Shown: positions 2,475 through 10,971 of the stretch, piece after piece
Numbering within the stretch: the stretch's first letter is position 1
Layout of the letters: each line of letters starts with the position of its first letter
Assembly: GCA_024697625.1 (NCBI GenBank)
Contig: JAILFJ010000122.1
Location: 1-50,023, forward strand
From: Oscillospiraceae bacterium
GTDB taxonomy: Bacteria > Bacillota > Clostridia > Oscillospirales > Oscillospiraceae
Length of the DNA stretch: 50,023 nucleotides
Direction of reading: 5' to 3'
The notes under the pieces: model-generated
Database searches by the model: none
What the model saw: the letters and a program-made list of their open reading frames with translations, nothing else
Told to the model about the DNA's origin: nothing
Position numbers and translations under genes: made by a program

Positions 2475-4406
2475 TTATGCCGCTCTCGGATACAGGATCT
2501 GAGTGGTCGGCCGGTACTGAGCATCCAGTGAAGGAATATTGACCGGGAGCCTGCCCTCCGTGCTGCACAGACCGAAACAGGCCAGCAGTCCCGCAGGCAG
2601 ATTGGAGGACCAGGAACTTCCCACGGCAGGCAGCTGCGGCATGGCGTTTCCCCAATAGGTCAGGAGCACGGCGTCTGCCTCCGGGAAACGGGCCGCGTCG
2701 TACGGCAGCTGGCAGCTTACAACGATCACAGTGCCGCCCCTGGCATGTACAGCCTCGATGATCCTGTCAAAGCTTCCGCTGGAGAATCCGTCGTCTGTGG
2801 CTGGATCCAGGCAGGCAGCAGCATAGACCCTGTGTACAAGAATCACATGATCTGCGTCCAGCGCTGCTTCAATGCACTCCGCTTCGTTGTCCCGGGTGTT
2901 CTTCATCACGAGGAGCTCTGCGCCCTCCGGCAGGGCCTGCCGTTCTTCCAGCAGCTTACGCGCAAGCTCTCCTGCTCCTGAACGGCTGGCACAGGAATCC
3001 GCGAACAGCACCAGCGTTGTCTCTCCGGCGTTCAGTGTAAGAGGAAAGGCGCTGTTCTCGTTTTTCACCAGTGTCAGCGCTTTTTCCGCAATCTGCCATT
3101 CCTTATCCCGGTGTGCTGCGGATCCGATCCTATCCTTTGCCGCGGCGATCATTTCGTCGGTCACGGTGAAGTCTTTCCTGCCCAGAATACCGTATTTCTG
3201 CTTCAGCCTCAGAATGCGGAGAACGGATTCGTCGATCCGTGCCTCGTCGATCTCTCCGCTGTCCACCAGTGACACCAGCGTATCCACACAGGTTTCCGCC
3301 ATGCGGAACAGTTTCGTATCCTTTACAGGAGGCAGGATCAGCAGATCGACGCCCGCATTGACCGCCAGCTTCAGCGTGTCCTCCATGCTGAAGTTTTCGG
3401 AAATGGCTGCCATATCCAACGCATCTGAGACGATCACGCCTTCAAAGCCCAGGTCTCCGCGAAGAATATCGGTCAGAATGGTTCGGCTCATGGTTGCGGG
3501 CAGAAAGACTTCCTCTCCGGTAGAGAATGAGGTGCGGGTCTCCTTTTCAATCTGCGGATACTGGATATGTGCTGTCATCACCAGATCGGCACCGGCGTCG
3601 ATCGCGGCTTTGAACGGAATCAGCTCACAGCGCTTCAGCTCGTCATAGCTGCTGCTGATGACCGGGAAGCCGGTATGGCTGTCTGTATCGGTGTTGCCGT
3701 GACCGGGGAAATGCTTCAGCGCAGAGGCGATTCCGGCGTCATGCAGGCCGGCCAGATAGGCGCAGCCGTATTCCGCAACCGTATACGGATCATCGGAGAA
3801 GGAGCGGATCCCGATCACAGGATTGGACGGATTGCTGTTGACGTCCACCACCGGTGCGAAGTCGGCATGGATGCCAAGCAGTCCGATTTCCTCTCCATGT
3901 ACGGATGCCATCTCCCGGGCATTGGCGGAATCACCTGTCGCGGTGAGAGCCATGTTGCTGACCCCGAGGGTGCCGTAGCTGACCCGGTTGACGTTTCCGC
4001 CTTCCTGATCCACGAAAAACATCTGAGGGAGACCTCCGCCGATCTGATTTGTGCTCTGAAGATCTGCGACCAGGCGGAGCGTCTGTTCCGGATCCTGGAT
4101 GTTTTCACCGAACAGCAGGATACCGCCGAAATGAATCCGACTGACCATGTCCCGGATCTCGTCGTTCAGCTCGGTGATGTTAACTGAGAGCGGCTCTTCC
4201 TGTGGCTCCTCTTCGTCTTCTGACTCCGGTACTTCTTTCCAGGCCCGGAAGGAGGCGATCATCATCTGGGCGGCTTTTTCCCGCAGGGACATTTTGGAAA
4301 GGGCAGTTTCCAGCGGATCTGTCGTCAGCTTTACCAGCAGCGCAGTACATCCCATAAGAATCAGGATGGAAAGGACTATGGTTCCAATTCTTGTCTGATG
4401 TTTCAT
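2475..4406 (-). CDS. Beta-N-acetylhexosaminidase, glycoside hydrolase family 3 (NagZ-like)
   Basis: 643 residues. The N-terminus is a signal-anchor segment ending LILMGC, a plausible lipobox, so the enzyme is probably an extracellular lipoprotein. The catalytic TIM barrel (about 35-400) carries the NagZ signature KHFPGHG at 231-237 followed by D-x-D-S-H, where the Asp-His pair is the acid/base unique to GH3 hexosaminidases, and IVSDALDM, which holds the nucleophile Asp. A second alpha/beta domain (about 420-640) is the GH3 C-terminal domain typical of the long Gram-positive form. The family removes GlcNAc from peptidoglycan fragments. The start has AGAGGAGAGC 7 nt upstream. It is a single gene with its own promoter at 4489-4517. 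Confidence 0.9.
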   Translation of the reverse strand: MKHQTRIGTIVLSILILMGCTALLVKLTTDPLETALSKMSLREKAAQMMIASFRAWKEVPESEDEEEPQEEPLSVNITELNDEIRDMVSRIHFGGILLFGENIQDPEQTLRLVADLQSTNQIGGGLPQMFFVDQEGGNVNRVSYGTLGVSNMALTATGDSANAREMASVHGEEIGLLGIHADFAPVVDVNSNPSNPVIGIRSFSDDPYTVAEYGCAYLAGLHDAGIASALKHFPGHGNTDTDSHTGFPVISSSYDELKRCELIPFKAAIDAGADLVMTAHIQYPQIEKETRTSFSTGEEVFLPATMSRTILTDILRGDLGFEGVIVSDALDMAAISENFSMEDTLKLAVNAGVDLLILPPVKDTKLFRMAETCVDTLVSLVDSGEIDEARIDESVLRILRLKQKYGILGRKDFTVTDEMIAAAKDRIGSAAHRDKEWQIAEKALTLVKNENSAFPLTLNAGETTLVLFADSCASRSGAGELARKLLEERQALPEGAELLVMKNTRDNEAECIEAALDADHVILVHRVYAAACLDPATDDGFSSGSFDRIIEAVHARGGTVIVVSCQLPYDAARFPEADAVLLTYWGNAMPQLPAVGSSWSSNLPAGLLACFGLCSTEGRLPVNIPSLDAQYRPTTQILYPRAA

Positions 4407-7990: not shown

Positions 7991-9616
7991 TCAATTACAG
8001 AGGACTGTGATGACGACCGGCGAGAGACCTGCTTTTTTGATGATCTCAGGATCAGCCTCCATCACCGGCTGCCCCGCAGTGACGGACTCGCCCTCCGTGA
8101 CCAGGGGACGGAGGCCGCTGCCTTTCAGCGTAAAGGTGTCGATGCCGATCAGCAGCAGAATCTCCGTGCCGTCAGCGGTCCGGAAAGTCAGCGCGTGGTG
8201 TGTATCGGCGATCTCGGAGACAGCCCCGTCGCAGGGGGCGAGGATATGACCGTTCTCCGGCATGATGCCGATGCAGCTGCCGATGACACCGGAGGAAAAC
8301 ACGATATCCGGAATCTGCTTCATGGGCACCGTCTCACCGCCTACGGGGGCAACGAGCGGCAGATTGGCCATCGCGCCGCCTGCGGCTGCCGACAGATTCT
8401 CTCCGGCCCGGATGCTCCGGGATTTTTTCCGGCTGAGACGCGCGAAAGTGGAAGAGCGCTGAGCGGCGGCCTGTCCGGCGGGCAGCTCTGTCTCAAAGCT
8501 CAGGTCCTCTTCACGGTACAGGAGATCTGTGATCAGAAAGCCCCCAATATAGCTGATGACAAGAGCAATCAGGTAAAAGAGAACACTCCGTACAGGTCCG
8601 CCCCGGCCTGCGGTCATCACAAAGGCGCCCAGGAGACCTGAGGGGCCCCAGGTGGTGGAGGCCACCTGCGTCAGCATGATGAAGGCGCCTCCGAAACCCG
8701 CACCGAGCCCAGCCGTGAGAAAAGGCTTTCCGAGAGGCAGGGTGACTCCGTAGATCAGCGGTTCCCCGACGCCCAGAAGGCCTGCGGGCAGGGCGCCGTC
8801 AATCACCGAACAGAGATCGCTGTTTCCTGCTTTCTTCGCTTTTCTCCAGAGCGCGAGCGCCGCACCTACCTGTCCCGCGCCGGCCATGGCGAGGGCAGGA
8901 TAGAGGGTGACAAACCCGAGCTCCTGCAGCTGCACGCTGTAGAGTGCTACCAGCCCGTGGTGCATACCTGCCGCAACCAGCGGGAGAAAGGCAGCGGCGG
9001 CAAGATAACCGGAGACAGCCCGGATCAGAATGTTATCAGACAGGCATGCTCTGCTGAAGAGCCAAACGATGCCTCCGGAGGCATAGCCGAACAGCGGCAT
9101 GACAAACAGAATATAGGGAAACACACAGAGAAACATGGTGAGCAGCGGAGTAAAGACCACATCGACGGATCTGGGGATGAAAGAGCGGATCGCTTTTTCG
9201 GTATGGGCGATCAGAAGTGCACCCACAATGACAGCCAGAACACCGCCCTTTCCGCTGCAGAGGATCGAATCCAGCGGAACCTCGCTGTTATAAAGTCCCA
9301 GGATGGCAGAAATACTGTTGATGCCGTCCAGAGAAGTGATCATGCCCAGCATGCCGCCCAGAATGGGTGTACCTCCGAAACGCTCTGCCGCACGATAACC
9401 TGCCCATGCGGTGAGAAAGGTCATCATGGAGCTGTTGATCAGGGACAGAATCTGGTAGATGAGGAACCAGCCTCTGCTGTCTGTGTAGTTCGGCACTGCC
9501 TGGGCGATGAGCGATGCAAAGCCTCCGCAGAGTCCCGCACTGATGATGCCGGGGAGCAGAGGAATGAAGATGTCTCCTATGATCTTCAGGGCGTTTCTGA
9601 TCCTGTACTTTTTCAT
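7991..9616 (-). CDS. PTS-like permease: IIC plus degenerate IIA domain, no IIB
   Basis: 541 residues. Residues 1-370 are a glucose/glucoside-family IIC membrane domain with about ten hydrophobic segments and the substrate-site motif GVGEPLIYGVTLPLGKPF. A basic linker (about 375-430) leads to a IIA-glucose-like domain (about 430-541). There is no IIB domain at either end and no CxTRLR-type phospho-cysteine motif. In IIA-Glc the phosphorylated His lies in a V-H-F-G-I-D context; here that position is Leu489 (CTG at 8150-8152), while the auxiliary His, 15 residues earlier, remains (His474). Thus both canonical phosphotransfer residues specific to IIA and IIB are missing from this protein. It may be a facilitator, a sensor, or depend on partners elsewhere. 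It is the last gene of the long leftward run; sugar specificity is not readable. Confidence 0.85.
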   Translation of the reverse strand: MKKYRIRNALKIIGDIFIPLLPGIISAGLCGGFASLIAQAVPNYTDSRGWFLIYQILSLINSSMMTFLTAWAGYRAAERFGGTPILGGMLGMITSLDGINSISAILGLYNSEVPLDSILCSGKGGVLAVIVGALLIAHTEKAIRSFIPRSVDVVFTPLLTMFLCVFPYILFVMPLFGYASGGIVWLFSRACLSDNILIRAVSGYLAAAAFLPLVAAGMHHGLVALYSVQLQELGFVTLYPALAMAGAGQVGAALALWRKAKKAGNSDLCSVIDGALPAGLLGVGEPLIYGVTLPLGKPFLTAGLGAGFGGAFIMLTQVASTTWGPSGLLGAFVMTAGRGGPVRSVLFYLIALVISYIGGFLITDLLYREEDLSFETELPAGQAAAQRSSTFARLSRKKSRSIRAGENLSAAAGGAMANLPLVAPVGGETVPMKQIPDIVFSSGVIGSCIGIMPENGHILAPCDGAVSEIADTHHALTFRTADGTEILLLIGIDTFTLKGSGLRPLVTEGESVTAGQPVMEADPEIIKKAGLSPVVITVLCN

Positions 9617-9651: not shown

Positions 9652-10971
9652 TCACGCGAGGTCACCGGACTTGCCGTGATAACGGAAGCACAGCATGGTG
9701 ATATCGTCAAACTGCTCGGCTCCGTCCACAAAGCTGCCGATGGCGTTCATGACATTCGTCAGAGCCTGCTCCGGCCTGGCGTCCGGATCGCTGTTCAGTG
9801 CGTCCAGCATACGCTCGGCTCCGAACAGCTCGTTCCTGCTGTTTGTGGCTTCGGCGACACCGTCCGTGTACACAAAAAGACTGTCCCCCGGATTCAGCTC
9901 AAACTCATGCTGCCGGAAGCGGAGCCCTTCCATGGTGCCGACAGGCATGGCGTGCCTGTAGATCACCAGTTCATAGCTGCCGCCAGCTCGCCGCAGTGTC
10001 GGATGCTCGTGACCGGCGTTCGCCGCAACACCCTTCCCGGTCGAGAGGTCAATCACAGCGACCCATACCGTCACAAAGAAGCCTTCGTCATTGGATTCAC
10101 AGAGCTGGTTGTTCACGCTCTCAAGCGCTTCTCCGGGGCCTTTGCCGTTCTGCAGGCTGGATTTGATCAGAACGCGGGCCACCATCATCAGCAGAGCGGC
10201 GGGAACGCCTTTTCCGGATACATCCGCCATGACAAGACCGATATGATCATGGTCGATCATGAAGAAATCGTAAAAGTCGCCGCCGACTTCCTTGGCCGGA
10301 GTCATGCTGGCATACAGGCTGAATTCCTTCCGATCCGGGAAGGGCGGGAACAGGCTGGGCAGCTGGCTGGCCTGAATTTTGCGGGCCATGTCGAGCTCCG
10401 CACCGATTCGCTCTTTTTCGGCGGTGACTTTTTTGACCTCGTCAATGTACAGCATGGTGCGGGCAGACTGTTTGGCAAAGGATTCGGCCAGGACTTCAAT
10501 CTCATCTCCGGTCCTGTACGCATCCTCCATCGTGAACTGCCTGCTTCGGACACCCAGGGATGCGATCCGCCGGGTGATGGCATTCAGCGGACCGATAATC
10601 CGGTCTGTGATGGAGGACGCGGAGATGATCCCGGTCGACACAATAAGGACCACCAGCAGGATAAGGATGTTTCGGATATGGAACATCTCGTTATGGAAGG
10701 TGGCCACGGTGCTGCTTCGCAATTCCTCGTACTCGTCGCCCATGCCGCTGTCAACATATACCTGCTTCTGCGACTCATAGACATCACGGACCAGCTGTAC
10801 AGCCCTTCTGGACTGATAAACGAAGACCGCCGTATAGGCCGCGATAATCAGAATAATCGTGATCAGCAGCAGACGGAACACCTTGTACCGGATACCGCCT
10901 TTCATGGCTGTCCGGTTTTTCTTTCCGAACCTGATTCTGCGGGAATCCTTATCCATATCTGTCTTGATCAT
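9652..10971 (-). CDS. Membrane HAMP / SpoIIE-type PP2C serine phosphatase (RsbU-like)
   Basis: 439 residues. A basic N-terminus (1-26), a membrane helix (about 27-48), a short outside loop of 50 residues, a second helix (about 97-115), a HAMP linker and coiled coil (about 116-190), then a SpoIIE/RsbU phosphatase domain. Metal-binding aspartates are in place: GGDFYD, DVSGKG and YTDGVAEA. This class dephosphorylates anti-sigma-factor antagonists (STAS proteins) in response to a signal. No STAS protein, anti-sigma kinase or sigma factor is nearby. The ATG at 10971 has only a distant AGAGGGAG; an internal ATG at 10956 is possible. It lies 30 bp after galE and 35 bp before the PTS-like gene on the same strand. 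Confidence 0.88.
   Translation of the reverse strand: MIKTDMDKDSRRIRFGKKNRTAMKGGIRYKVFRLLLITIILIIAAYTAVFVYQSRRAVQLVRDVYESQKQVYVDSGMGDEYEELRSSTVATFHNEMFHIRNILILLVVLIVSTGIISASSITDRIIGPLNAITRRIASLGVRSRQFTMEDAYRTGDEIEVLAESFAKQSARTMLYIDEVKKVTAEKERIGAELDMARKIQASQLPSLFPPFPDRKEFSLYASMTPAKEVGGDFYDFFMIDHDHIGLVMADVSGKGVPAALLMMVARVLIKSSLQNGKGPGEALESVNNQLCESNDEGFFVTVWVAVIDLSTGKGVAANAGHEHPTLRRAGGSYELVIYRHAMPVGTMEGLRFRQHEFELNPGDSLFVYTDGVAEATNSRNELFGAERMLDALNSDPDARPEQALTNVMNAIGSFVDGAEQFDDITMLCFRYHGKSGDLA

Follow-up and report, generated by a model that had tools for sequence, protein, structure and literature searches.

A PTS-derived permease without its phosphotransfer sites, encoded beside a sensorless PP2C phosphatase: a candidate two-gene membrane receptor

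UhpC is a transporter homologue that works with the membrane signalling enzyme UhpB, and the permeases of the LacS type carry a C-terminal IIAGlc-like regulatory domain, with a phosphorylatable histidine, on a carrier of the GPH family. UhpC-UhpB and DctA-DcuS are described as transporter/sensor pairs of E. coli (PMC5703999), and a role in peptidoglycan recycling is described for the PTS transporter MurP (PMC6262408). Among the signalling phosphatases, dCache_1 serine phosphatases have been proposed to be among the AI-2 receptors of rumen bacteria (PMC9540692), and coiled-coil linkers have been argued to make the N-terminal sensors of PP2C dimers exchangeable, so that varied sensors can control them (PMC12143880). 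In the open-licence literature, searched by titles and abstract openings for a PTS-derived sensor, a PTS-PP2C pair or transporter sensors, nothing was recognisable as the pair described below.

Here we describe a gene pair in a 50,023-nucleotide stretch of DNA from an Oscillospiraceae bacterium (contig JAILFJ010000122.1 of assembly GCA_024697625.1; the window), in which a permease derived from a PTS enzyme II is encoded beside a membrane phosphatase of the PP2C class. We consider it fairly probable that the permease serves as a receptor subunit which replaces the sensor of the phosphatase, the two genes together making one membrane receptor. The permease gene has the following parts, where the clade is the group of orthologues set out below.

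7991..9616, minus strand: PTS-derived IIC-pseudoIIA protein, 541 aa (ORF, Pfam, NCBIfam, predicted structure, orthologues)
8705..9577, minus strand: IIC transport domain, placed by Pfam at residues 14-304 and IIC-like as far as about residue 372 (Pfam and fold matches)
8957..8962, minus strand: His219-His220 of the GMHHGL motif, kept in 27/27 clade loci by alignment
8762..8764, minus strand: Glu285 of GVGEPLIYG, kept in 27/27 clade loci by alignment
8369..8500, minus strand: variable linker, residues 373-416 (median pN 0.32, against 0.08 in IIC and 0.15 in IIA)
7994..8356, minus strand: pseudo-IIA domain, residues 421-541, IIAGlc fold (Pfam, phmmer, AlphaFold2, Foldseek; median pN/pS 0.27)
8195..8197, minus strand: His474, the auxiliary histidine position, His in 25/27
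8150..8152, minus strand: Leu489, codon CTG, at the phospho-His position (Leu 25/27, His 2/27)
8132..8134, minus strand: Phe495, Phe in 27/27 of the clade and Val in 9/9 IIB-IIC-IIA relatives

Pfam places PTS_EIIC (PF02378) at residues 14-304 of the permease (E 3e-24; 86.1 bits against a cut-off of 30.7) and PTS_EIIA_1 at residues 421-541 (E 2.5e-36), and it finds no IIB domain in the protein. In the phmmer alignment with E. coli IIAGlc (1ggr), the histidine of FVHFGIDT falls on Leu489 and that of NHAF on His474, 15 residues from it. The AlphaFold2 model, built on a 32-row alignment, has a mean pLDDT of 80.6, with block means of 83-94 nearly throughout the IIA. In Foldseek comparisons the predicted IIA superposes on B. 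subtilis IIAGlc (1gpr) with an rmsd of 1.2 A over 122 columns, and the predicted IIC matches a PTTBC model, a PtsG model and MalT (5iws). The best NCBIfam match is TIGR01995 (beta-glucoside IIABC), at 251.9 bits against a curated cut-off of 614.7, followed by the MurP model NF007152 at 203.9 bits against 516. We take His219-His220 and Glu285 to be sugar-site residues. These results confirm the permease as a derivative of the glucose superfamily of the PTS that lacks both IIB and the IIA phospho-His while its IIA is still folded. They bear out an earlier note on this DNA, which had read an intact IIC including GVGEPLIYG, no IIB, a leucine for the phospho-His with His474 retained 15 residues earlier, and a folded IIA.

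A scan of genome contigs confirmed 114 relatives, the best 80 of which were compared. Among these 80, the first 27 loci (L057-L083, from 26 genomes) make up the clade; they are 73-82% identical to the window permease, at full or nearly full length in 26 cases, and their hosts are mostly Clostridia MAGs, many from the ruminant gut, with the isolates NK3D112 (L066) and NK4A144 (L082) included. In L083 the permease frame runs into unrelated sequence past residue 485, through a break or an assembly join. Residue counts refer to 27 sequences, namely the window and L057-L082 with L083 left out. Not all members of the clade are independent: the five loci L061, L063, L066, L067 and L069 are near-identical to one another, one genome carries both L069 and L071, and L073 matches a contig of genome G033.

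Residue 489 is leucine in 25 of the 27 sequences, encoded by CTG, CTC, TTG or TTA, and histidine in the other two (L068 and L070); residue 474 is histidine in 25, asparagine in L076 and serine in L080. Outside the clade, all 59 distinct IIA copies of the loci compared have histidine at both positions, a count that excludes 2 further non-clade matches which stop short of position 489. In the alignment none of the 27 orthologue loci, L083 among them, has an IIB stretch or an NCxTR-type motif ahead of the IIC. Over 351 pairs the median pN/pS is 0.17 for the IIC and 0.27 for the IIA, a ratio by which the pseudo-IIA domain is evidently under purifying selection, and the 27 frames read are free of stop codons. 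A tree of 81 rows built from the IIC alone joins the 28 rows without IIB in a single clade (support 100/100, stem 0.52), within which the two His489 rows are nested among the Leu rows; judged by inspection of the tree, their histidine was more likely regained than retained. A recent mutation or a pseudogene is rejected in view of the 25/27 leucines, the low pN/pS and the single clade, so the leucine is not a deviation of this strain alone, a case that the earlier note had raised against itself. The emphasis which that note laid on Leu489 holds for most of the clade and is softened by the two nested orthologues with His489, both in genomes with enzyme I.

The nearest IIA copies outside the clade lie in the loci of IIB-IIC-HPr genes (L096, L093 and L105; 55-57%) and also in IIB-IIC-IIA relatives (L084; 54%), and so do not single out the exact ancestor of the permease. 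The relatives have arrangements of their own. At L095:9680-13519 an IIB-IIC-HPr fusion is followed by an EI-IIA fusion, which puts a whole PTS into two proteins, and IIB-IIC-HPr fusions occur also in L004, L092, L093, L096 and others of L092-L124. An IIC-only relative, L007 (G014:C3; 55%), has NY for HH and GVGQPL for GVGEPL, and enzyme I, IIAGlc and IIB were not found in its genome, G014; it is possibly a second, independent loss of phosphotransfer.

The gene immediately upstream, 35 bp from the permease gene in the window, encodes the partner.

9652..10971, minus strand: membrane PP2C/SpoIIE-type phosphatase, 439 aa, without dCache (Pfam, alignments, neighbour search)
9679..10251, minus strand: SpoIIE/PPM phosphatase domain, residues 241-431, with the same Asp motifs in all 24 rows of the alignment
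10819..10884, minus strand: TM1, about residues 30-51 (by eye from the alignment)
10672..10818, minus strand: short extracytoplasmic segment, about residues 52-100, lacking the dCache that the paralogues have at about residue 70 (alignment)
10447..10671, minus strand: TM2 and HAMP-like stretch, about residues 101-175 (HAMP by eye, unscored by Pfam here)

By sequence the partner is a SpoIIE/PPM phosphatase: it scores 168.2 bits with PF07228 against a cut-off of 25, and its Asp motifs, presumably the catalytic residues, are the same in the window and in 23 of the 27 loci. Its structure model, with a mean pLDDT of 64.8 and much of the linker under 50, was too poor to build on. A PP2C homologue, 66-80% identical, lies at most 100 bp upstream on the same strand in all 27 orthologue loci, with a gap of -4 to 51 bp and four 4-bp overlaps (the start codon in L079 being unsettled). 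With most orthologues the alignment begins only at about residue 17, and the true start of the window PP2C may accordingly be later than the frame given here.

No other gene in the flanks compared keeps company with the permease in this way. When nine other window genes were compared, the GGDEF gene alone recurred closely, at one locus (L077, 80%), with weak partial matches at L078 and L080; the Rel, galE, NTP transferase and MBL genes were found in none of the 27 other clade loci, in flanks of a few bases to 10 kb. A comparison of the ORFs of 16 loci with all 27 gave no other neighbour shared beyond a handful. With PP2C constant and Rel and galE not shared in these flanks, the conserved module is the permease-PP2C pair. 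The earlier note had set the permease in an operon with a stringent-response enzyme and a PP2C phosphatase; the phosphatase, of which it made little, proved to be the constant neighbour, and a stringent-response link finds no support in the flanks compared and was rejected. The window also has a gene of the GH3 family (NagZ-like) at 2475-4406, 3.6 kb from the permease and not conserved beside the pair.

Strict exclusiveness of PP2C to the clade was rejected: among the best 80 of the 114 relatives, 3 of the 53 non-clade loci (L085, L099 and L103) also have a PP2C in the flank, and 39 of those 53 span at least 1.5 kb on both sides. At L099:7791-11551 the gene of a 619-aa PP2C, whose N-terminal part is longer, precedes an IIB-IIC-HPr gene by 20 bp, which suggests that PP2C-PTS operons may have arisen more than once.

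What sets the partner apart from its paralogues is a missing sensor. Paralogues were sampled from 200 family genomes as listed PP2C matches with E <= 1e-60. Among the matches listed, the PP2C rows outside the pair match the window PP2C from residue 72 or later and lie in frames of 461-1152 codons, and the two that reach its N-terminus (starts at 1 and 16) come from the window's genome and G033, both beside the permease. Twelve paralogues were fetched and five were aligned, one of them from the same genus (G174, the nearest, with 63% identity across the part shared with the window PP2C) and another encoded in the genome of the window itself (G000:C4). All five consist of TM1, about 300 residues with dCache_1, TM2, a HAMP-like stretch and PP2C, and dCache_1 exceeds the Pfam cut-off in 6/6 paralogues scanned (these five and L189); several of the other fetched paralogues carry different N-terminal parts. 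The window PP2C has about 50 residues between its membrane helices where the paralogues carry about 300 extra, and in it and in the 5 orthologues aligned with the paralogues the dCache, and nothing else, is missing. Pfam does not score a HAMP in the window PP2C, and the HAMP scores of three paralogues, 20-24.4 bits, fall short of the cut-off of 25.

PP2C phosphatases of this class are described as acting on STAS proteins (PMC11418112), and genes for such proteins occur in places near the pair and its paralogues. At L076/L194, genes for a STAS-APH protein and an RsbW-like HATPase_c_2 protein lie divergent from the pair, about 0.5 kb off; as L188 and L194 share 16 kb at 99.99% identity, this is one locus in effect. 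The 16 kb around the pair common to G217:C12 (L188) and G218:C38 (L194), which belong to two MAGs, represent a shared or contaminating contig or a recent transfer. The order STAS, PP2C, STAS-APH, HATPase is seen with a dCache-PP2C at L189 and L154 and with a PP2C at L192, L189 and L192 having been selected for their STAS-APH content. Among the seven dCache-PP2C loci not picked for STAS (L154 and L160-L165), L154 has both genes, L162 a HATPase and L164 a partial STAS-APH match, and L160, L161, L163 and L165 have no STAS-APH or HATPase match in the stretch compared. At L076:6961-8142 and L189:6509-7678 a single frame encodes a fusion of STAS with an APH-like kinase domain, and genes for HATPase and PP2C lie next to it. 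Homologues of STAS-APH at E <= 1e-30 were found in 19 of 24 genomes and not in the other 5, the isolate NK4A144 among the latter; the window's genome has a distant one only (36%). HATPase_c_2 matched in 7/7 genomes but also in 12/14 controls, so that the former count says little.

The window's genome (G000; 3.55 Mb, 89% complete) encodes an HPr with the phospho-His context. Searches with the glucose-class model found no IIB of that class in it or in G033 (100% complete), and the enzyme I N-domain was likewise not found in either, in a search that was positive in 8 of the 12 family genomes given to it. The sole PEP-utilizers_C match in the window's genome is a 928-aa protein, which we take from its length and look to be PPDK. 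The permease IIA is the one IIAGlc found there, and G033 is likewise without another. These are the outcomes of a genome check that the earlier note had proposed for HPr, enzyme I and IIB. Of the parts of a group-translocating enzyme II system, the IIC is present and the IIA phospho-His is not, and neither IIB nor the full set of enzyme I plus HPr was found in these two genomes. Across the 26 orthologue-bearing genomes enzyme I was detected in 11 and a glucose-class IIB in 8, and both His489 genomes (G211 and G213) have enzyme I and lack a glucose-class IIB. A strict coupling of the loss of His489 to the loss of enzyme I is thereby ruled out. Since two genomes lack a detectable enzyme I but 11 of 26 have it, the permease is independent of a PTS, yet not confined to PTS-free cells; and with His489 in two members from enzyme I genomes, some of the clade may still be phosphorylated.

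The earlier note had offered three options for such a protein, a non-group-translocating transporter, a sugar-binding sensor or an allosteric partner. All three survive, and the sensor and partner options are favoured by the PP2C gene being the invariant neighbour in 27/27 loci and having lost its own sensor in the aligned copies. A sensorless phosphatase always encoded with a phosphotransfer-less permease fits a two-protein receptor. With the sugar-site motifs of the IIC kept, the permease may equally well transport. An account in transport terms alone would make it a PTS-independent facilitator: free sugar would pass through the IIC under allosteric gating by the pseudo-IIA and be phosphorylated by a kinase in the cytoplasm, with the PP2C gene no more than co-regulated. 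We regard this as unlikely: the intact HH and GVGEP motifs throughout the clade and the two genomes without detected enzyme I suit it, but in the flanks compared the pair has no widely recurring catabolic neighbour, the one constant neighbour is a phosphatase that has no sensor, and murQ, which many of the relatives have nearby, was found at none of the 27 clade loci.

Still less probable is that the permease remains wired to the PTS, its pseudo-IIA docking HPr or P-Ser-HPr, or an IIB acting in trans, so that it reports the state of the PTS. The HPr of the window's genome, the enzyme I and IIB genes of some orthologue-bearing genomes and the two enzyme I-bearing His489 genomes speak for such wiring; against it stand the window's genome and G033, with neither enzyme I nor glucose-class IIB detected, and the lack of IIB even in the His489 genomes. 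That the gene is a PTS relic in decay, without any function left, as the loss of two catalytic parts might suggest, is scarcely credible, the low pN/pS of both domains, the uninterrupted frames (the broken L083 excluded), the single clade and the invariant neighbour having already contradicted it.

The receptor reading itself meets contrary results. His489 persists in two members, enzyme I in 11/26 genomes, and 3/53 relatives also have a nearby PP2C; the STAS-HATPase genes adjoin the pair at one locus, four of seven dCache-PP2C loci have neither gene, and STAS-APH was missed in 5/24 genomes. With these weighed, a receptor of two subunits is the reading we prefer. Its steps would be as follows. 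A permease of the MurP/beta-glucoside type has lost its IIB and, in 25/27 sequences, its IIA phospho-His, so that it can no longer phosphorylate its sugar, while retaining the sugar-site motifs of the IIC and a well-folded IIA. In its partner, reduced to TM-TM-HAMP-like-PP2C by removal of the extracytoplasmic dCache, the permease-like protein would fill the role of sensor. Sugar bound, or moved, by the IIC would shift the pseudo-IIA, the membrane helices or both; the shift would alter the HAMP/coiled-coil linker and with it the dimerisation and activity of the phosphatase, which would then dephosphorylate the STAS proteins of a STAS/HATPase partner switch. What the sequences show directly is the loss of domains, the conservation, the constant pairing of the genes, the absence of the sensor, and STAS-HATPase genes next to one pair locus and next to some paralogues; the physical coupling of the two proteins, the direction of the signal, its target and its ligand are what we infer here.

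As to the ligand, a murQ homologue was found by tblastn in the flanks of 28 of 53 phosphotransfer-type relatives (among the best 80 of 114), 2 of the 9 IIB-IIC-IIA loci included, and NCBIfam confirmed murQ in the two neighbours scanned (L084 and L091). The same search found it in the flanks of 0/27 clade loci and nowhere in the window. The sugar of the ancestral permease may have been MurNAc-like, and from the murQ genes near the relatives one might guess that the present ligand is MurNAc or a similar cell-wall sugar. More tentatively, as a history that is plausible though rather short of probable, we suggest that a PTS permease was converted once to a subunit that serves a Ser/Thr phosphatase as its obligate receptor, the permease shedding both phosphotransfer sites and the phosphatase its dCache, and that sugar sensing, possibly of MurNAc, was thereby joined to a STAS/HATPase partner switch without transfer of PTS phosphate. 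Transporter-derived sensors are known for histidine kinases; here it would be a gutted PTS enzyme II with a PP2C output. The two complementary losses amount to a natural experiment on sensor exchange on PP2C phosphatases, and the pair, present also in the isolates NK4A144 (L082) and NK3D112 (L066), is a small and testable two-gene receptor candidate.

Among known systems, the permease is nearest in build to the MurP/BglF-type enzymes II of the glucose superfamily, with which it shares the IIC and IIA folds and the HH and GVGEP motifs; unlike them it has no IIB and no IIA phospho-His, scores far under the cut-offs of TIGR01995 and NF007152, and lies in a genome without detected enzyme I. The LacS-type permeases resemble it in joining a permease to a C-terminal IIAGlc-like domain, but their GPH-family carrier and phosphorylatable histidine both differ from what the window permease has. 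The partner shares TM1, TM2, the HAMP-like stretch and PP2C with the dCache-SpoIIE/PP2C phosphatases, and differs in having no dCache sensor and a permease gene adjoining. In principle the proposed pair resembles UhpC-UhpB and DctA-DcuS of E. coli, where a transporter homologue likewise goes with a membrane signalling enzyme, and its genes look as those of a UhpC-UhpB-like system might be expected to look, a pair conserved in 27/27 loci whose signalling enzyme lacks a sensor; here, however, a Ser/Thr phosphatase would provide the output in place of a histidine kinase, and the permease is of PTS origin.
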